64,000 nt of DNA, from contig CALDSD010000069.1 of NCBI GenBank assembly GCA_937911325.1, positions 1 to 64,000 of the forward strand. Direction: 5' to 3'. Shown here piece after piece: positions 33,820 to 55,576 of this stretch. How positions within the stretch are numbered: position 1 is the stretch's first letter; each line of letters opens with the position of its first letter. The notes below the pieces were generated by a model. It saw only the letters and a program-made list of their open reading frames with translations, did no database searches and was not told where the DNA came from. This DNA is from an uncultured Neomegalonema sp. GTDB lineage: Bacteria; Pseudomonadota; Alphaproteobacteria; Rhodobacterales; Rhodobacteraceae. Position numbers and translations under genes: made by a program.

Positions 33820-33871
33820 GGCTCTCGCCCGCCACTCTTCACGTCCCGCCTGTGAAAGCACATATTTTTGT

Positions 33872-33890
33872 TGCATACAATATGTATTCA
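33872..33890. promoter_or_regulatory. Candidate GntR operator
   Basis: The near-perfect inverted repeat TGCATACA-ATA-TGTATTCA (8-base arms, 7 of 8 matching) sits in the 108-base divergent gap between the GntR and AraC-family genes. FCD-type GntR proteins commonly bind short AT-centred palindromes like this. The assignment is inferred from position and symmetry. Confidence 0.5.
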
Positions 33891-33927
33891 TGCGTGTCTG
33901 AGCACGTGGCGGCTCCGCGGATATGGC

Positions 33928-38122: not shown

Positions 38123-38611
38123 CTACGATTGGGCCGCCTGACTTCGCATGTCGGCGGCGGCGTCGATCACGGCGCGCACGATCTTGTCATATCCTGTGCA
38201 ACGGCAAAGGTTGCCCGCCAACCAGTAACGCACCTCGGTTTCGGTTGGGTCGGGATTGCGGTCGAGCAGGGATTTCGCCGCCACCAGAAAACCCGGTGTG
38301 CAGACCCCGCATTGCAGCGCGGCGTGTTCCAGGAATTTCCGCTGCAGCGGATGCAGCGCGTCGCCTTGTCCGAGCCCCTCGATCGTATCGACCGAGGCGC
38401 CGTTCGCCTCGGCGCCTAAAACCAGGCAAGAACACACCAGACGGCCGTCGACGGTCACGCTGCAGGCTCCGCAGTCGCCGGTGCCGCATCCCTCTTTGGT
38501 TCCGGTCAATCCGAGACGGTCGCGCAATGCGTCGAGAAGCGTTTCGTCGGGCTCGCACAGAAACTCAACCGCATCGCCGTTGACGGTTGTGGAAACGTGG
38601 ATCTGAGACAT
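38123..38611 (-). CDS. Molybdenum hydroxylase [2Fe-2S] subunit
   Basis: A 162-residue two-cluster ferredoxin-type subunit. A plant-type cluster is bound by Cys 42, 47, 50 and 62 (KEGCGTGDCGACSV, then LVCSCLV). The second cluster sits in an all-helical domain with CGVCTPGFLVAAK and CRCTGYDKIV. It passes electrons from the molybdenum centre to the FAD subunit. It lies 9 bases from the FAD gene and 54 from the large-subunit gene. Confidence 0.95.
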   Translation of the reverse strand: MSQIHVSTTVNGDAVEFLCEPDETLLDALRDRLGLTGTKEGCGTGDCGACSVTVDGRLVCSCLVLGAEANGASVDTIEGLGQGDALHPLQRKFLEHAALQCGVCTPGFLVAAKSLLDRNPDPTETEVRYWLAGNLCRCTGYDKIVRAVIDAAADMRSQAAQS

Positions 38612-38620
38612 GGGACTTCC

Positions 38621-39484
38621 TTACTTCTGCGCCGCGAACGCGCGTTCCTTGGCCGCAACCGCGGCGCGTTTGGCCAACACGCCGGCGACTTGCGTGCGGA
38701 ATTCGATGGTGCCGCGCTTGTCGTCGATTGGATTGCAGGCTGCGGCGCAGGCTTGCGCGAGCTGCTCCAGCGCAGCGTCGTCGATTGCGGTTCCGATCAG
38801 GGCCGCTGCGGCGTCTGCGACGAGCACTGCTTTCGGGGCGACGGCGCCCAGCGCGACGCGTGCGGCCTGGCACATGCCGGCGTCGTCGAACGAGAGGCTG
38901 ACGCCTGCGCCCACGACCGCGATGTCCATCTCGGTTCTGGGAATGAAGCGGAGATAAGCGTCGCCCGAGCGCGCTGCTCTGGTCGGCAGGCGGACGGCTT
39001 CCACCAGCTCGCCTTTCGCCAGCGTGGTGCGGCCAGGACCGGTCGTCATCTCCTCCGCCGGGATTTCGCGCGTGCCGGTGGGGCCTGAGATCACGATCCG
39101 AGCGCCGGCGGCGATCAAGGCGGGGGTCGTGTCCGCGGCCGGCGACGCATTGCACAGATTGCCGACAATCGTTGCGCGCCCCTGAACTTGGGTCGAGCCG
39201 ATGAGCCCGGCCGCCTCCACCAGACCTGGCCAAGCCGCCCCCAGGCCGGCGTGTTCGGTGATCTCGGCCGCGGAAACGGCCGCCCCAATCCGGAACCCGC
39301 CGCTGTCGTCTCGGATCGACTTCATCCCGTCGATGCGTTTGATGTCGACGATAACCTCCGGGGCCACGCGATCGGACCGCAGCTGGACGAGCAGGTCGGT
39401 GCCGCCGGCGAGCACATGCGCGCCTTCGTGGGATGTCAGCAGGTCAATCGCAGCTTCGACGGTCTGCGGCGCCGCATATTGCAT
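38621..39484 (-). CDS. Molybdenum hydroxylase FAD-binding subunit
   Basis: A 287-residue CoxM/XdhA-type flavoprotein. FAD pyrophosphate-binding motif HVLAGGTDLLVQLRSDR (about 20-36), then the second motif TIVGNLCNASPAADTTPALI (about 106-125). The C-terminal CO dehydrogenase flavoprotein domain follows. It is first in the operon FAD-[2Fe-2S]-large subunit-MoaD-like. A 206-base upstream region separates it from the DddQ-like gene and holds a tandem repeat. Confidence 0.93.
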   Translation of the reverse strand: MQYAAPQTVEAAIDLLTSHEGAHVLAGGTDLLVQLRSDRVAPEVIVDIKRIDGMKSIRDDSGGFRIGAAVSAAEITEHAGLGAAWPGLVEAAGLIGSTQVQGRATIVGNLCNASPAADTTPALIAAGARIVISGPTGTREIPAEEMTTGPGRTTLAKGELVEAVRLPTRAARSGDAYLRFIPRTEMDIAVVGAGVSLSFDDAGMCQAARVALGAVAPKAVLVADAAAALIGTAIDDAALEQLAQACAAACNPIDDKRGTIEFRTQVAGVLAKRAAVAAKERAFAAQK

Positions 39485-39690: not shown

Positions 39691-40332
39691 TCACTGAGCT
39701 TGCGAAAAGCTGATCGACGCTCGGTCGCCGGGCTCGAGCCACCCCACGAACGACAAAAACGGGATGTCGCCGGCGCGGGTGGCGTGTGGTTGGAACGACC
39801 TGTGGCGCACAAGCTCTCCCGCTTGAACGGGAAACCGCTCGGCTTGATCCAGCCGCCACTCCACATTTCCTGTCAGCGGCAGGTAGACTTCGCTCGCCAA
39901 ATGCTCGTGGTCCGGATAGGCCACCCCCGGACCCATCAACAAGAAGCCCCCGCGCGGCTGCTCGAGAAGGATTGGCCCTTCCGGTCCGGAGAACGACGCA
40001 TAGGCGTAGCCGTCGAGAAACTCGGGCGTGCAGTTCTCCGCGGTGTAGCTGGGGTTCTGCGACCACCGCAGTTCAGGCAATACGGCTTCGAACAGCTCGG
40101 CCAGACCGGCGAGCGGTCCCTGTTTGGCGAGCGTAAGTGCGGTGTCGAGATGCTTCAGCACCCCGAATGCGTCCTGATACCGGGACTCTTCGACGAACTG
40201 TGTCGCCGGCGTTTCCGGCGGGATGGTCGCTCGCTCGCCCGTGATTTTGTCGGTGCGGGCTGCGACGGCGGCCCAGGCCGCCAAGTGAACCTCGCGCAAA
40301 GCTGGCGATACAGTTGAAAGAGGGCTCTCCAT
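39691..40332 (-). CDS. DddQ-like cupin dimethylsulfoniopropionate lyase
   Basis: A 213-residue cupin of the DMSP lyase family (DddQ/DddL/DddW/DddK group), which splits DMSP into dimethyl sulfide and acrylate. The helical N-terminal half ends with LPELRWSQNPSY. The cupin has GFLLMGPGVAYPDHEHLASE (ligands His 142, His 144 and Glu 148), the likely catalytic Tyr 150 and the late ligand His 183 (QPHATR). Tyr 139 is also conserved. These give the H-x-H-x3-E-x-Y...H pattern of the family. The ATG overlaps the CoA-transferase stop by one base; a GTG lies 3 bases earlier. Activity is inferred from motifs. Confidence 0.8.
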   Translation of the reverse strand: MESPLSTVSPALREVHLAAWAAVAARTDKITGERATIPPETPATQFVEESRYQDAFGVLKHLDTALTLAKQGPLAGLAELFEAVLPELRWSQNPSYTAENCTPEFLDGYAYASFSGPEGPILLEQPRGGFLLMGPGVAYPDHEHLASEVYLPLTGNVEWRLDQAERFPVQAGELVRHRSFQPHATRAGDIPFLSFVGWLEPGDRASISFSQAQ

Positions 40333-41603
40333 CACGTGTCTTTCTCTTGATCCGCGCCGAAAGCGCCGCGTTTTGCAAAGTCTGCGATGGCGTCCGGGGC
40401 GAGGCCGAGAACATCGCGCAAGACGCTTTCAGTGTGCTCGCCAAGCAGCGGCGCGGCGCGCGGAGGGGACGGCGGGGTCTTCGACAAGGCGAGCGGAGAT
40501 CCGACGCCGGGCACCCGTGCGCCGTCCGACGTGACGGGCTCGGTTCGCAATCCTCTTGCGATCACCTGTGGGTCCGCAAAGACCTGTTCAACGGTGTTGA
40601 CCGGTCCGCACGGCACGCTCGCAGCCGATAGGGTCTCAACCCAGTCGCGCACCGACCGCCCGCCGATTAGGGCGTCGAGGATCGGAACCAGCTCCGCCCG
40701 GTTTCGCACTCTGTCGGGGTTTGTCTTGAAACGCGCGTTTTCGGCCAACTCGGGTCGGCCAGCGACCTCGCAGAACCGTTTGAACTGGCGGTCGTTGCCG
40801 ATGGCGAGGATCAGATGCCCGTCGCTGGCGGCGAAAGCCTGATACGGCACGATGTTGGGATGCGCGTTGCCAAGCCGGCTCGGCGACCGCCCGGTCGCAA
40901 GGTAGTTCATCGCCTGATTGGCCAGAGCGGCGACCTGCACGTCCATCAGCGCCAGGTCGATCGACTGGCCCTCGCCGGTCGCGTCGCGATGGCGCAAGGC
41001 GGCCAGGATCGCGATCACCGCGTAGAGCCCTGTGAGCACGTCCGTCAGCGCGACGCCGACCTTCATCGGCTCAGCGCCCGGCTGACCTTCGGGTTGACCT
41101 GTTATGCTCATCAACCCGCCCATCGCCTGCAGCAAGAAGTCATAGCCGGCGCGTTCTGAGTAAGGCCCGGTCTGGCCAAACCCGGTGATCGAGCAGTAGA
41201 TGAGATCCGGCTTCACCTCGCACAGTCGCCCGTAGTCGAGGCCGTATCTGTCGAGATCGCCTTTCTTGAAGTTCTCGATCACCACGTCGCATTTGGCGGC
41301 GAGCTGGCGCATGACGTCCTGACCGGCCGGGCTTGCAATGTCGATGGCGACCGACGCTTTCCCCCTGTTCGCAGAGTTGAAGTAAGCGGATCCCCGGTTC
41401 TCGCCGTCGCTGTCCTCGACGTCCGGCTGTCCCCAACTGCGCGTATCGTCGCCTCGGCCCGGACGCTCGACCTTGATCACCTCAGCGCCGAGATCCGCGA
41501 GTATCTGTGACGCCCATGGACCCGCTAGAATTCGGCTGAGATCCAGGATCCGGAGACCGTCCAGAGCGCGGGGCGCGGCGGGCGCCGCATTGATGTCTTC
41601 CAT
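40332..41603 (-). CDS. Class III CoA-transferase (CaiB/BaiF family) 1
   Basis: A 423-residue CaiB/BaiF-family protein: LDGLRILDLSRILAGPWASQ, ADLGAEVIKVERPGRGDDTR, ENFKKGDLDRYGLDY, DLIYCSITGFGQTGPYS, and the acyl-CoA-forming aspartate in SIDLALMDVQ. Such enzymes move CoA between carboxylic acids. It is translationally coupled to the DddQ-like gene, so a role in activating a DMSP-derived or related acid is plausible but unproven. ATG 41603 starts shortly before homology; the frame is open to 41795. Confidence 0.9.
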   Translation of the reverse strand: MEDINAAPAAPRALDGLRILDLSRILAGPWASQILADLGAEVIKVERPGRGDDTRSWGQPDVEDSDGENRGSAYFNSANRGKASVAIDIASPAGQDVMRQLAAKCDVVIENFKKGDLDRYGLDYGRLCEVKPDLIYCSITGFGQTGPYSERAGYDFLLQAMGGLMSITGQPEGQPGAEPMKVGVALTDVLTGLYAVIAILAALRHRDATGEGQSIDLALMDVQVAALANQAMNYLATGRSPSRLGNAHPNIVPYQAFAASDGHLILAIGNDRQFKRFCEVAGRPELAENARFKTNPDRVRNRAELVPILDALIGGRSVRDWVETLSAASVPCGPVNTVEQVFADPQVIARGLRTEPVTSDGARVPGVGSPLALSKTPPSPPRAAPLLGEHTESVLRDVLGLAPDAIADFAKRGAFGADQEKDT

Positions 41604-41689
41604 GGCGGGACTGGATCCTATTGGGGGCGATTGCGCGATCATAGCGGCGCTGATCTTCAAAGACAGGCGTTCTCGTGTCTCTGATCGCT

Positions 41690-41714
41690 GTTCCCCCGAT
41701 TTGCAATCGGGAAC
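41690..41714. promoter_or_regulatory. Inverted repeat between divergent CoA-transferase genes
   Basis: The left arm GTTCCCCCGATT and right arm AATCGGGAAC are complementary over 10 bases, apart from two extra C residues on the left, around a TGC loop. It is central in the 190-base gap between two divergently transcribed genes, a typical operator position. Confidence 0.45.
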
Positions 41715-41793
41715 CCGGACGCCGCCTGAGGCTTGATTTCTTGAAGACAGGGCCGGACGATTGCATGCTGGCGGTAGAAAGGGAGCGGTGAAC

Positions 41794-42993
41794 ATGCAGG
41801 CCTTTGAGGGACTCCGCGTTCTCGACCTGACCCATGTGCTGGCGGGCCCTTTTTCGACCTATCAGCTCGCGGTTCTGGGCGCTGACGTCATCAAGATCGA
41901 AGGCCCCGGCGCCGTCGACATGAACCGGGAGATCGGCGCGGTGGGCGATTTCAACACGGCGCTGATGGGAACGCACTTTCAGTCGCAAGCGGCGAACAAA
42001 CGCGCCATTACGCTCAACCTGAAATCCGAGCAGGGGCGGGCGATCTTCAAGGATCTCGCCAAGACGGCGGACGTTATTGTCGAGAATTTTCGCGCTGGAA
42101 AACTCGACGCGCTGGGATTGGGCTACGAGGACATCCGCGCGATCAAGCCGGATATCATCTACTGCTCCATGACCGGGTTCGGACAGACCGGCCCCAAGCG
42201 CGAGCACGCCGCCTTCGACAACACGATCCAAGCCTACTCGGGCATGATGCTGCAGACGGGCGCAGCTGACGACGAGGCTGTGTTGGTCGGCCCGCCGGTT
42301 CTGGACTTCGGCACAGGCGCGCAGGCGGCGTTTGCGATTTCCTCCGCGCTTCTGCGCCGCGAACGAACCGGCGAGGGGCAGTATCTGGACGTCTCGATGC
42401 TCGACGCCGCCTTGATGCTGATGACGTCGGGGGTTCTCAACACGAACACGACCGGCCGATCGCCGGGGCGCACGCGGCACGCGCGCGTGCCTTACGCCGG
42501 GTACGGCGGCTATGAAACGGCGGATGGCGTTCTGATGATCGGAGCCGTTACACCGCCGCAATACGCGGCTCTGTGGCGGGTGTTGGGGCGGGAAGACATC
42601 GCGCGCGAGGTTCAAGGGCTGCGGATCCCGGACATCGCAGCGCGCCGCTCGGTTGATGAACCGATCCTCGAGGACGTCTTCAAAACCAGATCCGCCCACG
42701 CGTGGGAGACATTGTTGATTGAAGCCGGCCTGCCCGCGGCGGCCGTGCAAACGCTTCGCGACGCCTTGCAAGGAGAACAGGTCGCAAGCCGATCTGTTGT
42801 CGGGGCTTACGCCGCGCCATTCTCGAAGTCCGGGGCGCTCCGCCCGGCGGTCGCCGCCTTCCGGTCGTCTCAGGACGGACCTGAGGTGAAAAGCCCGCCG
42901 CCAGAGCTTGGCGAGCACACCGGAGAAGTGCTCGCCGAGATCGGGTACTCCGACACAGAGATCGACGAGCTGCGGCGGCTGAAAGTGATCTAG
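41794..42993 (+). CDS. Class III CoA-transferase (CaiB/BaiF family) 2
   Basis: A 399-residue CaiB/BaiF-family protein: FEGLRVLDLTHVLAGPFSTY, GADVIKIEGPGAVDMNRE, ENFRAGKLDALGLGYEDI, IIYCSMTGFGQTGP, catalytic Asp in YLDVSMLDAALML. It shares the fold with the divergent gene but differs in its middle and end, so they are not recent duplicates. ATG 41794 follows GGGAG by 9 bases; a GTG at 41788 is also possible. The polysaccharide-deacetylase-like gene follows 35 bases later, probably cotranscribed. Confidence 0.9.
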   Translation: MQAFEGLRVLDLTHVLAGPFSTYQLAVLGADVIKIEGPGAVDMNREIGAVGDFNTALMGTHFQSQAANKRAITLNLKSEQGRAIFKDLAKTADVIVENFRAGKLDALGLGYEDIRAIKPDIIYCSMTGFGQTGPKREHAAFDNTIQAYSGMMLQTGAADDEAVLVGPPVLDFGTGAQAAFAISSALLRRERTGEGQYLDVSMLDAALMLMTSGVLNTNTTGRSPGRTRHARVPYAGYGGYETADGVLMIGAVTPPQYAALWRVLGREDIAREVQGLRIPDIAARRSVDEPILEDVFKTRSAHAWETLLIEAGLPAAAVQTLRDALQGEQVASRSVVGAYAAPFSKSGALRPAVAAFRSSQDGPEVKSPPPELGEHTGEVLAEIGYSDTEIDELRRLKVI

Positions 42994-43028
42994 CCCGCAG
43001 CGTCTGTTTCTTCGCAGAAGGGAATGAA

Positions 43029-43970
43029 ATGGCGGACCCAAATGCGCCCCCGAGCCGCGAGTACATCGGCTACGCGGATAAACCGCCGCAGGCCAACTGG
43101 CCCGGCGGCGCCCGGATCGCGGTGAACTTCTGCATCAACTACGAGGAAGGCGGGGAGCGCTCGATCTTCGAAGGCGACGCCCAGTCCGAAACCCGCATCT
43201 CCGACGTGAATGTCGAACCCAGGGTGGGCGGGCGCGAACTGAACATCGAACACAGTTACGAATACGGCTCCCGCGTCGGTTACTGGCGCCTCTTGCGGGC
43301 GTTCGCGGATCGCGGGCTCAAGGCGACGGTCAATCTCGTTGGCCGAGCGGGCGAACACAATCCTGTCGCCCTTCAGGCGATGATTGACGCCGGTTTCGAT
43401 CTGCATCCCCACGGGTGGCGCTGGATTGACTATGCGACGCTCTCAAAAGACGAGGAGCGCGACATGATCGCCAGGTCGATCAAACAGATCAGGGATCTGA
43501 CCGGGCGGGCGCCTGTCGGGTACTACGCTGGTCTGCCGTCGCTGAACACGCTGGATCTCGTCGTCGAAGCGGGGAACTTTCTCTACACGTCAGACGTCTA
43601 CAACGACGACTTGCCGTATTGGTCGCCGGATTATCCGGGACTTCTGATGGTTCCATACTCGTTGGACACCAACGATTCTCGGTTTGGGCGCGCAGAGGGC
43701 GGATACCAGATCGCAGACGAGTTCGTCGCCTACATCCGCGACAGCTTCGACCAGCTTTACGCCGAGGGGGCGGACCATCCCAAGATGCTCACGGTCGGCC
43801 TGCATGCGCGTCTGATCGGACGACCAGGCCGCATCGTCGCGCTGCACCGAATCCTCGACCACATGATGGCGCGTGATCAGGTTTGGTTCTGTCGGCGAGA
43901 CGATCTTGCGCGCCATTGGGCGGACGAGCATCCCGACCCACGTCTGTCGGCCGGCTCTGTCACAGAGTAA
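43029..43970 (+). CDS. PuuE-like polysaccharide deacetylase / allantoinase family protein
   Basis: A 313-residue NodB-fold protein. The opening EYIGYADKPPQANWPGGARIAVNFCINYEEGGERS matches PuuE-type metal-independent allantoinases (in two parts: WPGGARIAVNF and NYEEGGE). GFDLHPHGWRW, GYYAGLPSLNTLDLV and YNDDLPYW are further family signatures. PuuE opens the allantoin ring; related members act on other amides. The neighbouring molybdenum hydroxylase makes a purine link possible, but urate-handling genes are absent. ATG 43029 has AAGGGA 6 bases upstream. The 3' end overlaps the convergent M24 gene by 11 bases. Confidence 0.82.
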   Translation: MADPNAPPSREYIGYADKPPQANWPGGARIAVNFCINYEEGGERSIFEGDAQSETRISDVNVEPRVGGRELNIEHSYEYGSRVGYWRLLRAFADRGLKATVNLVGRAGEHNPVALQAMIDAGFDLHPHGWRWIDYATLSKDEERDMIARSIKQIRDLTGRAPVGYYAGLPSLNTLDLVVEAGNFLYTSDVYNDDLPYWSPDYPGLLMVPYSLDTNDSRFGRAEGGYQIADEFVAYIRDSFDQLYAEGADHPKMLTVGLHARLIGRPGRIVALHRILDHMMARDQVWFCRRDDLARHWADEHPDPRLSAGSVTE

Positions 43971-45105
43971 CGCTGTCCAGCGAATTCGGATGGTCGGTGA
44001 TAAGGTCGTATCCATCCGTCGTGAGGATAACGCTGTCGCCGACCTGCGCGCGAAACGTATCGGTCGAGACCGAGCCGTCCACGGCGAGCACCATGCCCGG
44101 CTGCAGGATCGTCGTATCGCCGGTCACGAGTTCAGGCTTCTCGAGATAGCTGTAGCCTGTCGCGCGCCCGCATCGGAACGGATAGGCGTAGCCTGCATCC
44201 TCGATGACCTCCGCGTACGCTTGATGAACGCTTTCAGCGGTTACGCCAGGACGCAGCGCGGACAGCGCGGCGGCCTGGCTTGCTCGGGCGACGTCATAAA
44301 CCTCGGCCTGGAGAGGATCGGCGATCTCGCCAATCCAGAAGGTGCGATCGAAGCCGAGCTTGAAGCGGTGAAAATTCGTCATTCCGCAAAAGCAAAGAAA
44401 CACCGGTTCGCCATGGCGCATCACGCGCGGCGAGGCCCGATGGTGAGATTTTCGGATCTCATCTCCCGAAGCCATGATCTGCAGAAATTGCGTGTTCGGC
44501 GACATCTGCGTGTCGTCGTAGTGCGTTGTCAGCAGCTCGGCCGCCTTGCGCGCCGCAGCCTGTGACGTCGCCAGGGCCACCTCGAACTCTGGAACGCCGT
44601 CGCCGATGGCCTCTCGACCCGCCGCCATCATCGCATTGGCCACCTCGCCGGCGTGACGCGCCAGTTGCAGCTCTTCTGCGCTCTTGATCATTCGCATTTC
44701 CGCGAGAAGCGAGGCGACGTCGCGCGGTTGGCGTGGTCCGAGCAAAGCATCGACGTAGCGGCGCACCAATGGTGGGATTTTTTCGCGTTCGATCGCGACG
44801 CGGTTGGCGCCGGCCAGCGCGCCTGGCAACTCCGTTCGCCACTCTTCCCCGGCGCCGTCGTTCCAGGGCGCGATCCGGTCGACCCGGGCGGAGGCTTGCG
44901 CCATCGCAAAGTCGATCATCGGCGTGATCAGCAGACTCTCCCCTGCTTTCGGGACGACGAGGATCGTCGGTCTGCCAAACTCCATGTGCAGATAGTCGTA
45001 GTACCCGGTGAGGTAGTAGACGTTGTCCTCATCCGTGATCAGCGCGACCTCCAGATCCGCATCGTTCAACCTCATGCGGAGCGCGTCGAGCCGGGCTTCG
45101 AACAT
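43960..45105 (-). CDS. M24 (creatinase/prolidase-fold) protein lacking metal ligands
   Basis: A 381-residue pita-bread-fold protein with creatinase N domain (DNVYYLTGYYDYLHME) and M24 C domain. None of the five metal-binding residues of M24 peptidases is kept. The Asp pair is replaced around 238-251 (FLCFCG, KLGFDRTF), the GHGxG histidine is Arg 314, and the two glutamates are Asp 343 and Gly 356. It is therefore not a normal aminopeptidase; metal-free members such as creatinase hydrolyse C-N bonds. Its start touches the M20 gene's stop. Substrate unknown. Confidence 0.82.
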   Translation of the reverse strand: MFEARLDALRMRLNDADLEVALITDEDNVYYLTGYYDYLHMEFGRPTILVVPKAGESLLITPMIDFAMAQASARVDRIAPWNDGAGEEWRTELPGALAGANRVAIEREKIPPLVRRYVDALLGPRQPRDVASLLAEMRMIKSAEELQLARHAGEVANAMMAAGREAIGDGVPEFEVALATSQAAARKAAELLTTHYDDTQMSPNTQFLQIMASGDEIRKSHHRASPRVMRHGEPVFLCFCGMTNFHRFKLGFDRTFWIGEIADPLQAEVYDVARASQAAALSALRPGVTAESVHQAYAEVIEDAGYAYPFRCGRATGYSYLEKPELVTGDTTILQPGMVLAVDGSVSTDTFRAQVGDSVILTTDGYDLITDHPNSLDSVTL

Positions 45106-46286
45106 CAGGCCGCGTCCCGCGACAGTGTTTGCTCGACCAGCCGCACCCAGAAAGAGGACCCTGGCGCCAGGAGGTCGTCGTTGAAGTCGTAATCGGCGGA
45201 ATGCAGCGGACGCGCGTGCGGTCCGGTCACGCCGTTGCCTGCGAATACAAAGCAGCCAGGACGCGCCTTCGCCATGTGTGCAAAGTCTTCCGAAGCCATC
45301 ACCGGGGGGTAATCTGTGTTCACGCCCGCAGACCCCGCGATCATGGTCGCGGCCTCGGCGGCGAGCCGCACCGGTTCCGGCGCATTGAGCAAGACCTCAA
45401 ATTCGGTTTCGTAGCGCACCGCGCCTCGCACCCCATGCGCCATGCAGACGCCCTCAACGATCTGCCGCATCTTGCGTTCGATCTCGGAATTGACCTCGAC
45501 GCTCAGCGCTCGCGCGTCGCCCGTCAGCGTCGCGCGGCCCGGCAAAACGTTGCGTTGACCGTCGGTACGAAAGTCCGTCACCGACACCACGCCGTTCAAA
45601 CCGGGATCCAGTTTGCGCGAGACGATTGTCTGCAGCGCCGTCACGACTTCCGCGCCGACGGTGATCGCGTCGACGCCGTGATGGGGCATCGCCGCGTGGC
45701 CGCCTCGGCCTTCGATCGTAATTTCAAAGAGCGCTTCGCTCGCCATGGTCGCCCCGGTCCGCATCGCGAACGCGCCGACTGCGAGACCAGGCATGTTGTG
45801 CATCCCGTAGACCTGCTCCACCGGGAACCGGTCGAAGAGGCCGTCCGCGATCATCGCAGGCCCACCTTTGCCGTGCTCTTCGGCAGGTTGGAAAACGAAC
45901 ACGACGCGTCCTGAGAACGCCCCGAACTCCGACAGGTGCTTGGCGGCGCCCAGCAACATCGCCGTGTGGCCGTCATGTCCGCAGGCGTGCATGACGCCAC
46001 GGGACTGCGATTGGTGCTCGAATTCGTTGAGCTCGTGGATCGGAAGCGCATCCATGTCCGCGCGCAGGCCAATGCCCCGCGAACCATCGCCGCGCTGCAG
46101 GACGCCGACGACCCCGGTTTCTCCAACGCCTCGGTGAACCTCGAGACCGAAGCTCTCCAACAGCTCGGCGACGCGCTCGGATGTGCGCAGCTCCTTAAAG
46201 CCAAGCTCTGGGTTCTGATGGAAGTCGCGCCGCCAGGCGGTCATCTCTTCGCACAGATCCGCGGTCGGCCATTCGGCGTTTTTCAA
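45105..46286 (-). CDS. M20 family amidohydrolase (hippurate hydrolase-like)
   Basis: A 393-residue M20D-type amidohydrolase: WRRDFHQNPELGFKE, LRADMDALPI, metal ligands in HACGHDGHTAMLLGA, FVFQPAEEHGKGG, the dimerisation domain (GRGGHAAMPHHGVDAI) and a late His in ARPLHSADYDFND. Such enzymes cleave N-acyl amino acids or related amides. The TTG start has GGAGAGG close upstream. It is coupled to the metal-less M24 gene; the pair may act in sequence on one amide-containing compound. Confidence 0.92.
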   Translation of the reverse strand: MKNAEWPTADLCEEMTAWRRDFHQNPELGFKELRTSERVAELLESFGLEVHRGVGETGVVGVLQRGDGSRGIGLRADMDALPIHELNEFEHQSQSRGVMHACGHDGHTAMLLGAAKHLSEFGAFSGRVVFVFQPAEEHGKGGPAMIADGLFDRFPVEQVYGMHNMPGLAVGAFAMRTGATMASEALFEITIEGRGGHAAMPHHGVDAITVGAEVVTALQTIVSRKLDPGLNGVVSVTDFRTDGQRNVLPGRATLTGDARALSVEVNSEIERKMRQIVEGVCMAHGVRGAVRYETEFEVLLNAPEPVRLAAEAATMIAGSAGVNTDYPPVMASEDFAHMAKARPGCFVFAGNGVTGPHARPLHSADYDFNDDLLAPGSSFWVRLVEQTLSRDAA

Positions 46287-46309
46287 CGGACCTCTCCTTC
46301 GCTACGCGA

Positions 46310-46912
46310 CTACTCAGCCGGGATCACGAACAGGCTCGGATCGACGGTTTGATTTTGCCGAACATTCGTCACCGCGATCACATTCGACACGCCCTGCGCG
46401 TCGGTCACGACATATTGCCGAACAAGCAGAGGGTCGGCGTCCATGATCAACGTGACGAGGATCGGGCCGGACTCGTCGCGACGTTTGACGCTGACCCGGA
46501 TGCGGTCGCCGTCGCGCTCGGCCGTCGCGCCGCTGGCTTTGAGCGCGGCCGCGACGTCTTCCGCCAGCAAAAGCGATATGGGCGTGCCGCTCAGCGGGCG
46601 GGGGACGACTGGATCGACGCCGTTCGCCACCGCGATCTGTGAACCGTCGGCGATCACTCGGATCGGCGCCGGCTTCTCATAGCGCATGTGCAATCGGCCT
46701 GGGCGCTGGAGGACGACGTCGCCTCGGCCGATCTCCCCAGCAGGGGTGCTTTGCGTAAAGTCTGCGGCAAACGTGCGAATGCTGTTGAAGTGAGCGCCGA
46801 CGCGCTCAAGCGTCGCGTCGTCCGCGTGAGCGGGCCCCACGGTCTGTGCAAAGCCCGCCAGCAGGCACAGCCAAAGCGCCAGCGTCGCGAAACAGTCGAT
46901 CCTGCGTGGCAT
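46310..46912 (-). CDS. lolA: LolA-like outer-membrane lipoprotein carrier
   Basis: A 200-residue secreted protein. The signal peptide (CFATLALWLCLLAGFAQTVG) ends near AHADD. LolA fold: FNSIRTFAADFTQSTPAGEIGRGDVVLQRPGRLHMRYEKP, then DPLLVRQYVVTDAQG and a final FVIP. LolA shuttles lipoproteins across the periplasm. It is 23 bases upstream of the M20 gene on the same strand, an odd neighbour for a housekeeping carrier, so readthrough is possible. ATG 46912 is chosen for the signal peptide; the frame is open to 46999. Confidence 0.85.
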   Translation of the reverse strand: MPRRIDCFATLALWLCLLAGFAQTVGPAHADDATLERVGAHFNSIRTFAADFTQSTPAGEIGRGDVVLQRPGRLHMRYEKPAPIRVIADGSQIAVANGVDPVVPRPLSGTPISLLLAEDVAAALKASGATAERDGDRIRVSVKRRDESGPILVTLIMDADPLLVRQYVVTDAQGVSNVIAVTNVRQNQTVDPSLFVIPAE

Positions 46913-47052
46913 CCCGACCCCCAGTTTTGCTTTCCTTCGCCAGACAGTGAGCGAAAACGTCGTCTTATGCGAGTCTTCGCCAGCACATAAGCGCCGCAAG
47001 GCCAGACACGCGCCGAGCCGAGCGCCGCCCCGGCGACGGACCGCGACGAGCT

Positions 47053-48273
47053 TCAGGTGATTTCACGCGTCTCGATCTTGACTTCACTCTCCAACGTCCG
47101 GTGCACCGGGCATTTGTCGGCGATCTCCATCAGCTTGGCGCGTTGCTCCGCCGTGAGATCGCCCAGCAGTTTAATCTCGCGCTGAAAAACATCGATCTTC
47201 CCGACCTGGGTTTCGCAGTTCGCACAGTCCTGGGCGTGGATCTTCTCGTGCCGCACATCCACGGAGACATGCTCGAGAGCGATCTCTTTGCGGCGCGCGT
47301 ACATCCGAATGGTCATCGAGGTGCAAGCGCCCAGACCGGCGGCGACCAGATCGTAGGGACCCGGCCCCAGGTCGGTGCCCCCAACGCTTTTGGGTTCGTC
47401 GGCGAGCAGATGATGTCCGCCGACATGAACGTCCTGAAGAAACCCGTTTGGCGTCGCTTCGGCGACGCGGACAAATCCTTCCTCGACGCCGGCGGCCGGA
47501 TGATGTTCCGCATCGGCTTCAACATAGCGCGCGGCCCAGGCTGCGATCACATCCGCCGCATACATCGCGTCGCGGTCGTTGGTGATCAGATGGTCGGCGT
47601 TGTCGAGCGTGACGAAACTTTTGGGGTGTCGGGCGGCGAGGAAGATCTGCGTTGCGTTCTCGATGCCGACCGTCTCATCGAGGGGCGCGTGAAGGACCAG
47701 CAGAGCTTTCTTCATTCCGCCGATCGCCGCCTCGAGCTTTGAGCTCTCGACGTCTTCCACAAAGCTCCTCTTGATCTTGAAGGGTCGTCCGGCCAGCTGC
47801 ACTTCCGCCTCGCCCTGGGCGCGGATCGTTTCAACTTCCGAACCGAGGTTGTGCAGCACGTGTTCCGGGTCTGCGGGTGCGCCAATGGTGACGACAGCGT
47901 TTGCGTCAGCGACCTGAACCGATGCGGCCAACACCGCCGCGCCGCCCAATGAATGGCCGATCAGCAGCTGTGGCGCGCCTCGGTTCTCGCGCAGCCAGTT
48001 CGCCGCAAGAACCAAGTCCTCGACATTTGAACTGAAGGTCGTGTTGGCGAACTCGCCTTTCGAATGGCCGAGGCCGGTGAAGTCAAACCGAAGCACCCCG
48101 ATGCCGCTGGCGGTGAGCTGTTCGGAGATGCGGCGCGCCGCGGCGATGTCCTTTGAGCACGTGAAGCAGTGTGCAAACAGCGCGTAGGCGCGTGCGCCTC
48201 GGTCGGGAAGATCGAGCCGTGCGGCCAGTTTGTCTCCAGCATGTCCGGGAAAATCGATGCGTTCGGTCAGCAT
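47053..48273 (-). CDS. Alpha/beta hydrolase-OsmC fusion protein
   Basis: A 406-residue fusion. Residues 1-260 are an alpha/beta hydrolase: GVLRFDFTGLGHSKGEF, the nucleophile in LLIGHSLGGAAVL, the acid in LHAPLDETV and His in NADHLITND. Residues 270-405 are an OsmC/Ohr-like domain with two redox cysteine sites, GLGACTSMTIRMYARRK and DKCPVHRTLE. The fusion is widespread in proteobacteria, though its substrate is unsettled; the OsmC part suggests peroxide or electrophile detoxification. ATG 48273 has GGAGG 6 bases upstream. Confidence 0.9.
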   Translation of the reverse strand: MLTERIDFPGHAGDKLAARLDLPDRGARAYALFAHCFTCSKDIAAARRISEQLTASGIGVLRFDFTGLGHSKGEFANTTFSSNVEDLVLAANWLRENRGAPQLLIGHSLGGAAVLAASVQVADANAVVTIGAPADPEHVLHNLGSEVETIRAQGEAEVQLAGRPFKIKRSFVEDVESSKLEAAIGGMKKALLVLHAPLDETVGIENATQIFLAARHPKSFVTLDNADHLITNDRDAMYAADVIAAWAARYVEADAEHHPAAGVEEGFVRVAEATPNGFLQDVHVGGHHLLADEPKSVGGTDLGPGPYDLVAAGLGACTSMTIRMYARRKEIALEHVSVDVRHEKIHAQDCANCETQVGKIDVFQREIKLLGDLTAEQRAKLMEIADKCPVHRTLESEVKIETREIT

Positions 48274-48380
48274 GGGCCCCTCCGTGTGTTTCTCCCGCCA
48301 GATAAGGGGGAAGCGGCGTCGGCGCGCAACCGTCCTCACGCGGCTGTGTCGCCGCGTCAGCGCCGCTTCCCGTCGTGGCG

Positions 48381-49142
48381 TCAGTTGCGACCGGCCATGA
48401 CCCCGCCGTCGACATCCCAAACCGATCCGGTCACCCAGCCGCTTTGATCCGACAGCAACAGGTCGATCGCCGAGGCGACGTCGTCCGGCTGTCCGATCCG
48501 TCCGACCGGGTGAAACCCGTTGAAGCCTTTCAGCGTCTCGTGGATCTGATCCGGCTCGATGAAGCCGCCATAGATCGGCGTTTCGACGACCGCTGGCGAG
48601 ACGGCGTTCACGCGAATGCCCTTGTCGGCGAGCTCCATCGCCAGATGCTGGGTCAGCGAATGCAAACCCGCTTTGGCCATCGAATAGGCTGAAGACGGCG
48701 TCGCCTTGATCGCCTGTTTGGCCCACATCGACCCAATGTTCACAATCGCGCCGCCGCCGTTTTTCTCCATGTTGTTGGCCGCCGCCTGGGTCAGGAAGAA
48801 GGTGGCCCGGTTCAGCTCCATATACTTGTCGTAGTCAGCCTGCGCATGCTCCAGAAATGGTTTCGGCACAAACGTTCCGGCGGCGTTGACAAGGCGCGCG
48901 ATCGGTCGGGCGCTTCCCTTGATCTCCGCCGAGAGCCGGTCGACGGCCCCCCGGTCGTAAAGATCGGCAATGCTTGTCGTGACGTCCGGCGCGCCGGCTG
49001 CAAGCAAGGTGTCCCGCGCCGCTGCAAGTTTCTGCGCATTCCTGCCGGTGATCCAGATTGCGTCGCCGGCGCGCGCGCGCCGGCTCGCAGCCGCCAGGCC
49101 CATACCGCTCGAACCGCCGATGACGAGTGTCAGGTTGGTCAT
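48381..49142 (-). CDS. Short-chain dehydrogenase/reductase (SDR) 3
   Basis: A 253-residue classical [26 protein letters not shown], catalytic [20 protein letters not shown] region (Ser about 142, Tyr-x3-Lys), [17 protein letters not shown]-terminal [13 protein letters not shown]. The cofactor motif has GGSSGMG. It is not closely similar to the two SDRs at 27-28 kb. ATG 49142 has GGAG 8 bases upstream. Two repeated half-site palindromes lie in its promoter region, suggesting control by an unlinked TetR-type repressor. Confidence 0.9.
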
Positions 49143-49155
49143 GTGATCGCTCCAG

Positions 49156-49237
49156 TATCTATCAGTAGGTAGGTTATTGACAGCGATCATCTGGGGCGCT
49201 GTGGATTATGTGTCAACCGTCTACCATGAGATAGGTA
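49156..49237. promoter_or_regulatory. Pair of candidate operators upstream of SDR 3
   Basis: Two 16-base sites of the same design lie upstream of the SDR start: TATCTA-TCAG-TAGGTA (49156-49171) and TACCAT-GAGA-TAGGTA (49222-49237), consistent with a TACCTA-N4-TAGGTA consensus. The first is also enclosed by perfect 8-base arms TGATCGCT (49144-49151) and AGCGATCA (49182-49189). Confidence 0.45.
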
Positions 49238-49304
49238 AAAAATCCGGACCGCGAGTGCGCAGCCCGGGCAGGCAGACCTCAGATGAAGCGACGGGATCTG
49301 TCGG

Positions 49305-50678
49305 TTAAGACAGCAAGCTGCTCTCGAACGGCAAGGATGTGAGGTTCTCGACCCCGTCTTCGGTGATCAGGATCTGATCCTCGAGTTTGATGCCTTCCTC
49401 GCCGCCGACGGCGCCGATATACACCTCTGCCGTCAACGTCATGCCCGGCTGGAGATAGCCGTACTCTTCGGGAAACTCGCCGTCGGCATAGTCCTCGGGA
49501 TACTTGATCGCCGGGTATTCGTCGCAGAGCCCAATGCCATGGAACTTCACGCCATAGCGTTGTTCGACGAACTCCTCTGGCAGCATGTGCCCCATGAAGG
49601 TGAGATCGCGGAACGAGACGCCGGGCTTGAGCATCTCGATATTCGTCATGATGTGCTCGTGCGCGACCTTGTAAATTCGTCTCTGCTCGGGCGTCGGCGC
49701 AATCCCGTACGCCTCTTCGCCGACGAGCCAGGTTCGCGAGATATCGCAGCAATAGCCATAGGGGCCGACCATATCCGTGTCGAACGCGATGAGTTCGCCC
49801 GGCTTCATCACGCGTGGCCCGGCTTCCTGCATCCACGGATTGGTGCGAGGCCCAGTCGCCAGGATCCGCGTTTCGATCCACTCGCCGCCACGGATGTGAT
49901 TGCCGTGGTTGAGCATCGCCCACATGTCGACTTCCGTTAGCCCGGCGTCGAGGCGGGGACGGGTCATCAGCGCCCGCATTTCATGACAAGCTGCTTCGCA
50001 GGCGGCGATCGCGCAGCGCATCGCGTTGACCTCGTTGGCGTCTTTGATCACACGAGCGAGCTCTGTGATCTGTTGACCTGACCGGATCTCGACACCCAGA
50101 TGCCGGAGCGCGTCGATCCCTTCCCATTCCATCTTGTCGACAGCCAAGCGCCGGTTCGATCCCGAGTGACCGCGCATCAGTTGATCGATCTGCCTTGCGA
50201 ATTGTTCAGCGCCCTCTTCGCAGCGTTCGCCCATCAGAAAGTAGAAAAAGCCCGCGCCATGGCGGACTTCGTCAATCAAAGGCAGATGCGCGGTGAGGTG
50301 ATCGCAGCCATGAAAGTCCCACAGAATGACCGGACCATCGGTCGCGACATAGCAGGCGCGCGCCGGGTTGTGCGCGGTCCACAGCTGCATGTTCATGCTG
50401 TCCGTCGCGTAGCGGATGTTCAGCGGGTCGAACATCAGCAGGCCCGCGTAATCCCGCCGGCGCAACTCGCCGCGCAACCGCTCAAGCCGGTACTCGCGGA
50501 GGCTTGGCAGGTCCGGCGGCGTGATGCCGAGCGCAGCGAACTCGTCAAACGCCAGATCTGTGGGGCCGATCTCGACGCGATCGTTGTCCGCTGGCGTCCC
50601 GTCGGGTTTCAACGCGACGCCGCGGCGCCGGGTGGGATCGATCTTTCGGTTGGAAACCGAGAAAGCCGTCGGATGCAT
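49305..50678 (-). CDS. dddP: DddP-type dimethylsulfoniopropionate lyase (M24 family)
   Basis: A 457-residue M24-fold protein matching DddP along its length: KIDPTRRRG, TPADNDRVEIGPTDLAF, GLLMFDPLNIRYATDSMNMQ (then LW), GGEWIETRILATGPRTNPW. Metal ligands Asp 300, 302, 312, His 380, Glu 418 and 433 are present. Asp 386 stands 6 residues after the His, where the catalytic base of Ruegeria DddP lies as I recall. It cleaves DMSP to DMS and acrylate. ATG 50678 has AGAGG 6 bases upstream and gives a family-typical length; a GTG at 50726 is the alternative. A perfect palindrome lies upstream. Confidence 0.88.
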   Translation of the reverse strand: MHPTAFSVSNRKIDPTRRRGVALKPDGTPADNDRVEIGPTDLAFDEFAALGITPPDLPSLREYRLERLRGELRRRDYAGLLMFDPLNIRYATDSMNMQLWTAHNPARACYVATDGPVILWDFHGCDHLTAHLPLIDEVRHGAGFFYFLMGERCEEGAEQFARQIDQLMRGHSGSNRRLAVDKMEWEGIDALRHLGVEIRSGQQITELARVIKDANEVNAMRCAIAACEAACHEMRALMTRPRLDAGLTEVDMWAMLNHGNHIRGGEWIETRILATGPRTNPWMQEAGPRVMKPGELIAFDTDMVGPYGYCCDISRTWLVGEEAYGIAPTPEQRRIYKVAHEHIMTNIEMLKPGVSFRDLTFMGHMLPEEFVEQRYGVKFHGIGLCDEYPAIKYPEDYADGEFPEEYGYLQPGMTLTAEVYIGAVGGEEGIKLEDQILITEDGVENLTSLPFESSLLS

Positions 50679-50748: not shown

Positions 50749-50821
50749 TCCAAATGCGGCGCCGGAAAACGACGCGCTGGACGCATTTCGACGATTGACC
50801 GGGTTTCTCTCAAGCGCGCAG

Positions 50822-52048
50822 ATGCGGTTCATGGATCCTGTAAAGCGACAATACGAGGCCTACCCTTACCCGGCGCGCGATCCGGCGGAGGAGGCGACGC
50901 GCCTGATCGAGGGCTCGCCCAGCCATCCGGTTGAGATCGATCACTTCATTTTCAGCGGAAAGCGCGATTGGACCCAGCCGATGCGCGTCTTGGTCGCCGG
51001 CGGCGGCACCGGCGACGCTCTGATCATGCTCGCGCAATTGCTGCACGACCGCGGCGCGCCGGCGGAGATCGTGTATCTCGACATGTCGACCGCGAGCCGC
51101 GAGATCGCTGAGGCGAGAGCGGCCGCGCGGGGCCTGAAAAACATTGATTTTCGCACGGGAGATCTGCTGACGGCCCCAGAGTTGGGGCCCTTCGATTACA
51201 TCGATTGCTGCGGCGTGTTGCATCATCTGCCGACGCCTCAGGCGGGCTTTGACGCTCTTGCCGAGGCGTTGGCGCCAGAGGGCGGAATGGGCGTGATGGT
51301 CTACGCGCCCTTTGGCCGCGCGGGCGTTTATGAGGCGCAGGCGATGCTGCACGCGATCTGCAGCGACGATGCGCCCGAAGCCCAAGTCGACGTCGGCAAG
51401 AGGCTGCTCCACGAGCTGCCGCCCAGCAACGCCTTTTCCCGCAACCCGCTTGTCGGGGACCACAAGGACACCGACGCCGGCCTCTACGATCTGCTGCTGC
51501 ATAGTCGTGACGCGCCCTACACCGCGCCAGAGCTGCTGAAGGCGTTCGAGACGGCGGGTCTGCGCTTGGCCGGGTTCCTTGAGCCGGCGCGCTACGAGCC
51601 ACAGACGTATCTGCGCGATCCAGAGCTTCTGAAACGGATTGGACAGCTCGACGTTGGCGCACGCGCGGGCTTCGCGGAGAAACTGGCCAGCAACATGAAG
51701 GTTCATATCGCCTACGCCGTGCCTGCGGCCCGCGCCAAATCCGTCGCGGCGCCCGCTTCGCCAAGCGCTGTTCCGGTCCTGCACCGGACGGACGCAAAAG
51801 CGCTCGCTCAGTCCGTCGCGAGCCGTGGGCGGCTGCGGTTCTCGGTCGACGGTCTCACGATTGAGCGCGGCGCCGACCGGAAGCTTGCGCCACTTCTGGC
51901 CCAGATCGACGGCAAGACGTCGCTTGGCGCTTTGCAACAGCGCAGCGGAGCAGACTGGATGACGTTCTCCGCAGCGTTCGGAAAACTCTATGCGCCGTTG
52001 GACGGTTTCAACATTCTCAGGTTCAGCCGGTTCTATGAGGGGCGCTGA
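50822..52048 (+). CDS. Class I SAM-dependent methyltransferase
   Basis: A 408-residue protein. YEAYPYPARDP opens a methyltransferase with SAM loop MRVLVAGGGTGDALIMLAQ, YLDMSTAS and the post-motif GPFDYIDCCGVLHHL. The C-terminal 120 residues (after about 300) hold a separate winged-helix-like segment of unknown role. Related proteins are annotated only as methyltransferases. Starts: TTG 50795 or ATG 50822 or 50831; none has a clear ribosome binding site, so the N terminus is uncertain. The HODM-like gene begins 4 bases after the stop. Confidence 0.8.
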   Translation: MRFMDPVKRQYEAYPYPARDPAEEATRLIEGSPSHPVEIDHFIFSGKRDWTQPMRVLVAGGGTGDALIMLAQLLHDRGAPAEIVYLDMSTASREIAEARAAARGLKNIDFRTGDLLTAPELGPFDYIDCCGVLHHLPTPQAGFDALAEALAPEGGMGVMVYAPFGRAGVYEAQAMLHAICSDDAPEAQVDVGKRLLHELPPSNAFSRNPLVGDHKDTDAGLYDLLLHSRDAPYTAPELLKAFETAGLRLAGFLEPARYEPQTYLRDPELLKRIGQLDVGARAGFAEKLASNMKVHIAYAVPAARAKSVAAPASPSAVPVLHRTDAKALAQSVASRGRLRFSVDGLTIERGADRKLAPLLAQIDGKTSLGALQQRSGADWMTFSAAFGKLYAPLDGFNILRFSRFYEGR

Positions 52049-52052
52049 CAAG

Positions 52053-52952
52053 ATGCAGAACGAGACGCCGCCGGAGTTTCGGCGGGAGATGTATGTCAGT
52101 CCGGCGCCCTACCTCCCGTTTCTCGATGCGCATAAGGGAAAACCTCCTGGGCTGTGGGCGTTGGACCCGGCGACCTGGGTCGAGCTCGACGCGGCCTATG
52201 CGCCGCAGATGGCCTATCGCGATCGCTTGAACGGCGAACGCGCCGATCAAGTCGCGTTGGCGACGCCGGGTTCCGAGGCGGCGGTCGCTGAATTGAGCGA
52301 TCATCTCGTCGATTACCTTACGAAGGATCCATCGACCGGGTTTCTTCGGATCGGCGAGGGCGTCCGTCGCCCCGACGGCGTGACGATCATCGCGACCGGC
52401 GCGATCGGCGCCCTCGGCCGGCTTTGCCAGGAGGACTGGGTCGTCATGCAGGAGCGCGACGGCGCGTCGGAATACGTTCTGACGGCCGCCAATCTCTGCT
52501 TTCCGTCGCACTGGGACCTGCGCGAAAAGATCGGGCTGCCCCTGACCCCGATCCATGCCCCCGTCCCGGATTACGAGGTCGATCTTGCGCCGCGCATCAA
52601 CCGGGTGTTCTCGGCGCTCCACGAGGATCGGCCGCTTCAGCGCCTGAACTGGTCTGTTTACGACTATGACGAGCTGCATCTGCCGGGCGCGCCGCATCGC
52701 GCGACGGGGAGGGACGCGCGCCCCGACTTCTTCTTGCGGGTCGAGAGGCAGACGCTTCGTCGTCTGCCGCAGACGAAAGCCGTGGTCTTCGGGATCAAGA
52801 TCTACATCACGCCGCTTGAGGATCTGCCGAAAGATGTGCTGGGGCCATTGGCCGAGGCTCTGTTGGCGCAGCCGCGTTCTCTGGTCGAGTATAAAGGCGG
52901 CGAGGCCCTGCTAAGCGGATCGGTCGACCGGATCAACGAGCTGCGCGCCTGA
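52053..52952 (+). CDS. HODM alpha-subunit-like (DUF3445) haem protein
   Basis: A 299-residue DUF3445 protein, the family now linked to haem-dependent oxidative N-demethylase, which removes a methyl group from dimethylamine. Visible signatures: FLRIGEGVRRPDG-like region, DWVVMQERDGASEYVLTAAN, CFPSHWDLREKIGLPLTPIH and NWSVYDYDELHLP. The Cys and His residues in CFPSHW and PIHAPVP are candidates for haem or metal contacts. The other HODM subunits are not adjacent, so the reaction is uncertain. It follows the methyltransferase by 4 bases. ATG 52053 has GAGGGG 11 bases upstream. Confidence 0.8.
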   Translation: MQNETPPEFRREMYVSPAPYLPFLDAHKGKPPGLWALDPATWVELDAAYAPQMAYRDRLNGERADQVALATPGSEAAVAELSDHLVDYLTKDPSTGFLRIGEGVRRPDGVTIIATGAIGALGRLCQEDWVVMQERDGASEYVLTAANLCFPSHWDLREKIGLPLTPIHAPVPDYEVDLAPRINRVFSALHEDRPLQRLNWSVYDYDELHLPGAPHRATGRDARPDFFLRVERQTLRRLPQTKAVVFGIKIYITPLEDLPKDVLGPLAEALLAQPRSLVEYKGGEALLSGSVDRINELRA

Positions 52953-54433: not shown

Positions 54434-55009
54434 TCTCTTTTCCCTTTCAATTGGATCGGTGTGACTGCTGTCGGGTACGGGCGCCGGGGTCGGAGTAACG
54501 ACTTCGGCGGGCGTCTTGGTGGCCAGGGTCGGCTTGTCGCCAGACGCTGACGGCGTCGGGTCTGGCTCGGCATCGGCCTCTGCTTCGGGGGTCGGCGGCG
54601 GCGTCGTCGCCGTTCCGCCCCCAGCCGCGATCGGCAGATCCGGCCGCCGCGCCGCAACCGTCTCAAGCGGCTCTGGCTTCAATGGCGCTGGCGCGTCGCC
54701 GCTTTCAGCGCTCGCCGGCGGCGCCGCGTCAGGGGCGGGCGTCGGCGGTGGAGCGGCGGGCTCGGGGATCAACGGCGCGGGCTTGAGAACCTTCGGCTCC
54801 GGCGCTGGAGCGTCCGCAGGGCCCTCAGAAGCCGTATCGACCACCGGATCCGCGGCGGGTTCCGCCTTAGGTTCGGGGGCCTGAGTGGAAACCGGTTCCG
54901 GATCAGCCTGGGCTGGCGGCGCCGGTTGCGGCGGCGGCGCGGCCTCCTCCGACTTCGGCGGAGCCGCCTCCGGCTTCTTTCGTCCAAATAACCAACTAAA
55001 CAAACTCAC
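54434..55009 (-). other. Pro/Ala/Glu-rich coding-like stretch fused in frame to glnA
   Basis: 192 codons from GTG 55009, read straight into GlnA Met with no stop. The start [19 protein letters not shown] is a short amphipathic or hydrophobic patch then a basic cluster. The rest is Pro/Ala/Glu/Asp-rich (repeated PAP, PEP and APDAAPP-type motifs), with a Gly-Gly-Gly near residue 128, and looks disordered. GGGAG lies 10 bases before the GTG, and glnB ends 39 bases upstream. It may be an N-terminal extension of GlnA, or a separate small gene that lost its stop. No family was recognised. Confidence 0.5.
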
Positions 55010-55549: not shown

Positions 55550-55576
55550 TCTCATTAATAGAGTTGGAGAAGGTTG

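Follow-up and report, generated by a model that had tools for sequence, protein, structure and literature searches.

A probable DMSP lyase in the roseobacter dddP locus and a nearby lyase-like cupin in an uncultured Neomegalonema genome

The first 64,000 nucleotides of contig CALDSD010000069.1 (here called the window), a 175-kb contig in the draft genome of an uncultured Neomegalonema sp. (GenBank GCA_937911325.1; 3.87 Mb in 102 contigs, 98% complete), carry two genes that resemble lyases of dimethylsulfoniopropionate (DMSP), one for an M24-family protein related to DddP and one for a cupin. The original prediction was that two unrelated DMSP lyase families are encoded here within 11 kb. Both genes were found in place, with 9 kb between them, and the functional part of the claim is half supported: the M24 protein is probably a DMSP lyase, while DMSP as the substrate of the cupin was not upheld. 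The reading that we consider rather likely is a single probable DMSP lyase in the window, DddP-like and located in the dddP locus, together with one lyase-like cupin, and no DMSP operon. The two genes are as follows.

39691–40332, minus strand: lyase-like cupin (PF16867, cupin-DLL) with no subfamily placement; PF16867 105 bits, model pLDDT (predicted local distance difference test) 83.6, 5cu1 at E 1.7e-15.
49305–50678, minus strand: DddP-like M24 lyase, positional counterpart of the roseobacter dddP; NF043017 574 bits, 53%/50% identity to RlDddP/RdDddP, nine active-site residues, conserved locus.

The NCBIfam DddP model NF043017 matches the M24 protein over residues 6–455 of 457 (E 1.8e-172), and in a phmmer comparison the DddP of Ruegeria lacuscaerulensis (RlDddP, 4rzy) aligns with residues 10–456 (E 2.1e-146). 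The identity is 53% to RlDddP, 50% to the DddP of Roseobacter denitrificans (RdDddP) and 49–53% to roseobacter DddPs. Nine active-site residues are present, W100, D300, D302, D312, Y375, H380, D386, E418 and E433, corresponding in this order to W95, D295, D297, D307, Y366, H371, D377, E406 and E421 of RlDddP. They comprise six metal ligands, the base Asp (place of Asp377) and the substrate aromatics (places of Tyr366 and Trp95), with ligands and base as given in PMC4108388. The predicted full-length match to DddP with six metal ligands and a catalytic Asp was thus borne out by profile, phmmer search and residue alignment. Of 101 aligned rows, 100 have all nine residues, even where the identity to RlDddP is as low as 42%; the exceptional row (L099) has a gap at one of them. 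Being near-universal, they are weak evidence of function on their own, and were rejected as deciding it.

By position, the window gene is the roseobacter dddP, and this assignment is well supported. The genes around it are listed below.

47053–48726, minus strand: hydrolase-OsmC protein of the conserved locus (PF02566, PF12146), true start inside the open reading frame.
48381–49145, minus strand: short-chain dehydrogenase/reductase (SDR) downstream of dddP, outside the conserved set (PF13561; 0/20 roseobacter-type loci).
50795–52048, plus strand: methyltransferase-domain protein, outside the conserved set (PF08242; 0/20 roseobacter-type loci).
51990–52952, plus strand: HODM-like protein (haem-dependent oxidative N-demethylase family) of the conserved locus (PF11927 199 bits, cut-off 25).
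53024–55009, minus strand: glnA of the conserved locus, preceded in frame by a long Pro/Ala-rich leader (PF00120, PF03951).
55574–57244, plus strand: NnrD-type protein of the conserved locus (PF01256, PF03853).

A set of 20 roseobacter-type loci of the same family group (L262–L281; DddP about 794–925 bits) was compared with 19 control stretches, each 20 kb long, of alphaproteobacterial genomes, which are a weak control for Pseudomonas. The hydrolase-OsmC and HODM-like genes each lie near dddP in 16/20 loci (0/19 controls), glnA in 17/20 and NnrD in 12/20 (1/19 controls each). Side and strand match the window in every occurrence (16/16, 16/16, 17/17 and 12/12, respectively), and the gene order is identical in all seven loci having all four genes. 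None of the four was found at 20 distant DddP loci or at 39 DddP-2 loci. The second DddP of the genome (C44:72768–74066; L005/L011; 681 bits), closer in sequence to roseobacter DddP, also lies outside the dddP locus, with 0/4 of these genes present. The neighbours of the window gene are mildly diverged, with a median identity of 80% for glnA (87% among the others) and 62% for hydrolase-OsmC (71%). The synteny stops near 47 kb, and the cupin block lies outside it. That the slot was kept suggests that the function, DMSP cleavage, was likely kept too, and since the DddP-like gene occupies an ancestral locus, its closeness to the cupin need not signal a common task.

Three further features of these loci were observed. 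The HODM-like gene stands beside dddP in the window, as in the 16 roseobacter-type loci. The glnA leader is ~190–200 residues long and Pro/Ala-rich, and the Pfam domains begin at residue 208, which would fit an upstream start or a fusion. The C44 DddP has on each side one MttB-like and one GcvT-fused dehydrogenase gene.

By sequence, the nearest relatives of the window protein, at 57–66% identity, are not roseobacter DddPs; they come from Pseudomonas, Paracoccus, Kiloniellaceae, Pelagibius and others. In a tree of 66 of the 101 aligned sequences, it lies outside a 21-row clade formed by the roseobacter-type DddPs and the C44 copy, and approximately unbiased (AU) tests, with groups chosen after the tree was seen, rejected both a clade of it with 17 roseobacter-type DddPs (p-AU 1.45e-54) and its pairing with the C44 DddP (p 0.006). 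The tree shows the window protein to belong to a DddP lineage different from the roseobacter type; one genome of the same family group carries a DddP identical to RlDddP, which makes Rhodobacteraceae very likely as the family. The simplest reading would be a replacement in place, in which the resident copy gave way to a foreign or paralogous dddP, or else the loss of one of two old paralogues at the dddP locus, in either direction.

Following the published DddP mechanism, with a metal-bound carboxylate, Trp and Tyr at the sulfonium and an Asp base (PMC4108388, PMC5395565), the di-metal site of the DddP-like protein would hold the DMSP carboxylate and its Trp and Tyr the sulfonium; Asp386 would take the alpha proton, dimethyl sulfide (DMS) would leave and acrylate would remain. 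The only acuI gene of the genome over the family cut-off (C99:21348–22322, 444 bits, cut-off 297) could clear the acrylate.

The cupin belongs to the lyase-like cupin superfamily, and its substrate may differ from DMSP. Pfam PF16867 (DMSP_lyase) matches it at E 3.8e-30 (105.2 bits, cut-off 27), and phmmer aligns it with solved DddQ at E 1.2e-13. It carries the motif H142-x-H144-x3-E148-x-Y150 with H183, plus Y139 at the place of DddQ Tyr120; the six DddQ residues Tyr120, His123, His125, Glu129, Tyr131 and His163 (PMC4437653) correspond to Y139, H142, H144, E148, Y150 and H183. Among 26 aligned cupins, W90, Y139, H144, E148 and H183 never vary, and each of H142 and Y150 is kept in at least 90%. 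The identity to DddQ in the fold alignment is 24–27%. The cupin also has both motifs that define the cupin-DLL superfamily, and its own subfamily is not known to include an assayed member. Lei et al. 2018 reportedly concluded that most families of lyase-like cupins do not have DMSP as their native substrate.

The H-x-H-x3-E-x-Y...H pattern of the original prediction therefore stands, while the label 'DddQ-type' does not, since the cupin falls outside the DddQ clade. In a 62-row tree this clade (14 rows, support 100/99) consists of three solved DddQs, the cupins of eight loci with Rieske or enolase neighbours, one more, and a further cupin of this genome (C96). The window cupin is likewise outside the DddL clade (10 rows, support 100/100), which joins three acuI-adjacent cupins, five others and two more cupins of this genome (C62 and C68:122k), and which we named so because an acuI-dddL operon is known from print (PMC3017554). 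Both clades hold without the window cupin after the addition of five Pseudomonas cupins, in trees made without duplicate short loci and with no full DddW, DddK, DddU or DddY sequences. As to the phylogenies proposed earlier as a check, the cupin is thus outside the functional clades, which speaks against the original prediction, and the DddP-like protein is outside the roseobacter clade, which does so by half. No close relative of the cupin was found: a scan of named genomes gave none, the top match among 292 genomes of the order is 40% identical over 129 residues, with one of 49% over 73 residues, and matches among 385 genomes of the class have 31–41% identity.

The genes flanking the cupin are these.

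35816–38068, minus strand: large subunit of a molybdenum hydroxylase (PF02738, PF20256, PF01315).
38123–38611, minus strand: its 2Fe-2S subunit (PF01799, PF00111).
38621–39484, minus strand: its FAD subunit (PF00941, PF03450).
40332–41795, minus strand: family III CoA-transferase (PF02515 452 bits), own start codon uncertain.

The stop codon of the CoA-transferase overlaps the cupin start (TGATG), and the FAD, FeS and Mo subunits follow downstream on the same strand. At another locus (L111, genome G575) a cupin of this family adjoins a CoA-transferase 62% identical to that of the window, beside MttB and an old yellow enzyme (OYE)-type dehydrogenase. No match to a Rieske gene was found within the window, and in the literature on DddQ with Rieske or enolase genes, DddQ was absent among the matches listed. 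The cupin would bind one metal through three His and one Glu and use Tyr150 or Tyr139 as a base, in a beta-elimination from a small onium or other beta-substituted carboxylate, possibly not DMSP. It is coupled to the family III CoA-transferase and precedes the molybdenum hydroxylase, in a block outside the dddP locus.

Several results weigh against this division into a DMSP lyase and a cupin of another kind. On NF043017 the DddP-like protein scores about 574 bits (573.7–574.1), under the equivalog cut-off of 600, and for this reason we call it 'DddP-like'. No acuI was found in the window at E 1e-12 and 33% identity. Across the 108 loci searched, acuI lies near DddP in five (four genes in all). 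The fourth genome of family f109 (G591) has a roseobacter-type DddP and no acuI in 1.5-kb flanks. Genes for methyl removal, discussed below, occur near distant DddP and DddP-2 loci, so that the substrate of this part of the family may differ. The solved folds nearest to the cupin model are DddQs (5cu1 at E 1.7e-15, then 4b29, 5jsp, 4la2 and 4la3), with DddK next (E 1.9e-8) and DddK and DddY ranking below DddQ. Placement of the cupin as sister of DddQ (p 0.343) or of DddL (p 0.549) was not rejected by the AU test, and with DddQ as its nearest fold it may still cleave DMSP.

As regards the DddP-like protein, the 600-bit cut-off was rejected as a functional limit, since three DddPs of family f109 (L166, L168 and L165) score 568–581 bits and have acuI on the same strand, two at ~0.1 kb and one at ~0.9 kb. 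This link supports DMSP cleavage in the window protein's part of the family, though it is not a general one. A criterion of 50% identity and 70% coverage (PMC9327192) would class the window protein as DddP, and fungal DddPs that have been assayed share 50% and 32% identity with RdDddP (PMC4108388).

It is possible, though doubtful, that both proteins are working DMSP lyases forming DMS and acrylate, with the neighbourhood handling the products. Every known active-site residue is present in both, DddQ is the nearest fold of the cupin, and the genome as a whole has acuI as well as three further cupins that fall in the DddL and DddQ clades; the absence of acuI stated earlier is correct for the window and not for the genome. 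In searches confined to PF16867 and DddP, which leave DddW, DddK and other families outside the count, the genome has four PF16867 cupins (E 1e-12) and two DddP-family genes (E 1e-100), and these six lyase-family genes are the highest number in the set of 292 genomes of the order, of which this genome is one. Three genomes (G074, G181 and G285) have five. PF16867 at the same threshold was found in 129 of the 292 genomes, with at most three copies in any genome but this one, and DddP in 163. Under random placement of four cupins and two DddPs in this genome, any cupin–DddP pair would come within 10.5 kb with a chance of 4.2%. Against two working DMSP lyases stand the position of the cupin outside both clades and its coupling to a CoA-transferase, the window without acuI, and the ancestral locus of the DddP-like gene. 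Formation of DMS and acrylate, predicted for both, seems plausible for the DddP-like protein by locus and active-site residues, and is not upheld for the cupin. A DddP–cupin operon in the window was rejected for now, given the genes between the two, the end of synteny at ~47 kb and the absence of DddP (at 1e-40) near all 51 cupin loci, searched in 10-kb flanks where contigs allow.

Regarding the other cupins of this genome, the two of the DddL clade (L012, C62; L013, C68:122 kb) lie on contigs other than C99, which carries the only acuI over the cut-off. The DddQ-clade cupin (in locus L014, C96:14001–32000) clusters with a Rieske oxygenase and, by eye, with an aminotransferase, a sulfatase-like protein and several members of the enolase superfamily, resembling DddQ-clade loci such as L188.

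Less likely, in our view, is that DddP-like M24 proteins and lyase-like cupins form a recurring onium-lyase pair in clusters for demethylation of methyl-oniums (betaines). The pair would be met in Pseudomonas from soil, in an alphaproteobacterium that has a corrinoid system, and close to the window, and DMSP cleavage by roseobacter DddP and DddQ would be one specialised branch of an older capacity for betaine degradation. Among 46 DddP loci tested, five related ones from Pseudomonas have a lyase-like cupin 1.3 to 5.6 kb from DddP, with genes for Rieske, ProVWX, GbdR-like, FAD oxidase, aldolase and aldehyde dehydrogenase (ALDH) proteins around; PF16867 confirmed the cupin in the two of the five that were scanned (128 and 123 bits). 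A further 40 DddP loci and the 19 controls yielded no such cupin. In genome G562, a DddP-like gene is followed by genes for a B12-binding protein and MttB, and a cupin lies 13 kb away. The stretch concerned (G562:C5; L240, L106) holds two MttB genes, a B12-binding protein, the DddP-like M24, the lyase-like cupin and two GcvT-fused dehydrogenases, as well as, by eye, activator-, MtgA- and MetF-like genes, and is a candidate aerobic corrinoid onium pathway. Gene names in other loci outside the family searches were likewise assigned by eye.

Neighbourhoods were probed within 10 kb with proteins for methyl removal: MttB, GcvT-fused dehydrogenase, a corrinoid protein, its activator, MtgA, OYE and Rieske. 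Such genes occur at 16 of the 51 cupin loci, 17 of the 39 DddP-2 loci and 8 of the 20 distant DddP loci, versus none of the 20 roseobacter-type DddP loci and none of the 19 controls, HODM being outside the probe list; Rieske genes were found near DddP-2 in 14 loci with one probe and in 15 with two. Thresholds differ between these neighbourhood counts, the loci come from search lists and are non-random, several short contigs lower the counts, and close relatives are not independent. The view that roseobacter-type dddP loci are free of methyl-removal genes was rejected, given the HODM-like neighbour in 16 of 20; methyl-removal neighbours therefore do not discriminate between substrates. Roseobacter dddP mutants show reduced DMS production (PMC5395565), which makes a methyl-removal neighbour compatible with DMSP as the substrate. 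The HODM-like finding led us to give lower weight to the recurring pair as well as to the nitrogen-betaine explanation considered below, for which the following window genes are relevant.

25535–27100, plus strand: MttB-superfamily methyltransferase in one open frame (PF06253 726 bits; TIGR02369 272 bits, under cut-off 525).
29293–30630, minus strand: FAD oxidase, part of a module common to Pseudomonas DddP clusters.
30627 to about 32135, minus strand: PuuC-like ALDH, same module.
32132–33064, minus strand: DapA-like aldolase, same module.
Within 33061–34323, minus strand: GntR regulator, same module.
33868–34881, plus strand: AraC regulator, of GbdR type by similarity to a Pseudomonas GbdR-like protein, same module.

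It is more improbable still that both proteins serve nitrogen-betaine catabolism as onium lyases, acting on a quaternary-ammonium carboxylate with DMSP cleavage as a side activity, even though the methyl-removal counts, the five Pseudomonas loci and G562 would fit this, as would the window module of FAD oxidase, ALDH, aldolase and GbdR-like genes (29–35 kb), whose probes match 11–13 of the 39 DddP-2 loci (ALDH 59–72% identical in 11): the distance to DddP is 14–20 kb for the module and 22 kb for MttB, some related DddPs have acuI next to them, the 40 further DddP loci have no cupin, many of the counted loci are close relatives and not independent events, the window DddP occupies the ancestral slot, and an HODM-like gene adjoins dddP in the very type of locus with a shown DMSP role. 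We return to the preferred reading, of one probable DMSP lyase and a separate lyase-like cupin.

Between the first CoA-transferase and the dddP locus lie four other genes.

41791–42993, plus strand: second family III CoA-transferase (PF02515 347 bits).
43029–43970, plus strand: PuuE-like deacetylase (TIGR03212 366 bits, under cut-off 425).
43960–45105, minus strand: M24/creatinase-type protein without metal ligands (PF00557, PF01321).
45105–46286, minus strand: M20 amidohydrolase (TIGR01891 344 bits, over cut-off 154).

The earlier naming of the neighbours as two CoA-transferases, a PuuE-like protein, M24, M20 and an SDR agrees with the family searches, in which the CoA-transferases are of CaiB type. 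The M24 protein at 43960–45105 keeps 0/9 of the DddP residues in a four-sequence alignment, and the label 'metal-free' given to it fits. Taken together, the CoA-transferase, PuuE-like deacetylase, ligand-free M24 and M20 at 41791–46286 hint at an N-methylated ring or amide as the substrate. After the MttB-superfamily gene at 25535–27100 come two SDR genes and a glyoxalase-like one, as judged by eye.

Compared with known systems, the DddP-like protein resembles the DddPs of R. lacuscaerulensis (4RZY) and R. denitrificans (4B28) in full-length alignment, metal ligands, base Asp and aromatics, and has its genomic locus in common with the roseobacter-type dddP. It differs from them in its limited identity (53% and 50%), its separate lineage, its score below the NCBIfam cut-off, and the insertion of an SDR gene and a methyltransferase gene next to it. 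DddP homologues of Pseudomonas (corrugata, thivervalensis, putida and others), already named dddP in print (PMC7039863, PMC9327192), are 57–62% identical and have the same residues, with one row gapped; many are in betaine clusters (Rieske, ProVWX, GbdR-like), five of them beside a cupin, unlike the window copy in the roseobacter dddP locus. The window cupin is like DddQ (4LA2, 5CU1, 4B29) in PF16867, the HxHx3ExY...H motif, the Tyr120 place and the fold, and unlike it in its low identity (24–27%), its place outside the DddQ clade and the absence of a Rieske match in the window. Most DddQ enzymes expressed in E. coli were more active on dimethylsulfoxonium propionate (DMSOP) than on DMSP (PMC10686828). 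Like Ruegeria pomeroyi DSS-3, which carries DddQ, DddW and DddP (PMC8520302), the window genome combines several unrelated lyase families, but it has six lyase-family genes, two of them 9 kb apart.

Counts of dddP and dddQ are used to estimate marine DMS release, and the locus shows two pitfalls for such counts: a cupin that has all active-site residues and is in neither the DddQ nor the DddL clade, and a dddP that appears to have been swapped in place for a distant relative. The neighbourhood survey offers a testable idea for the poor or unproven DMSP activity of some lyase-like cupins and DddP relatives, namely that some of them may serve nitrogen betaines.

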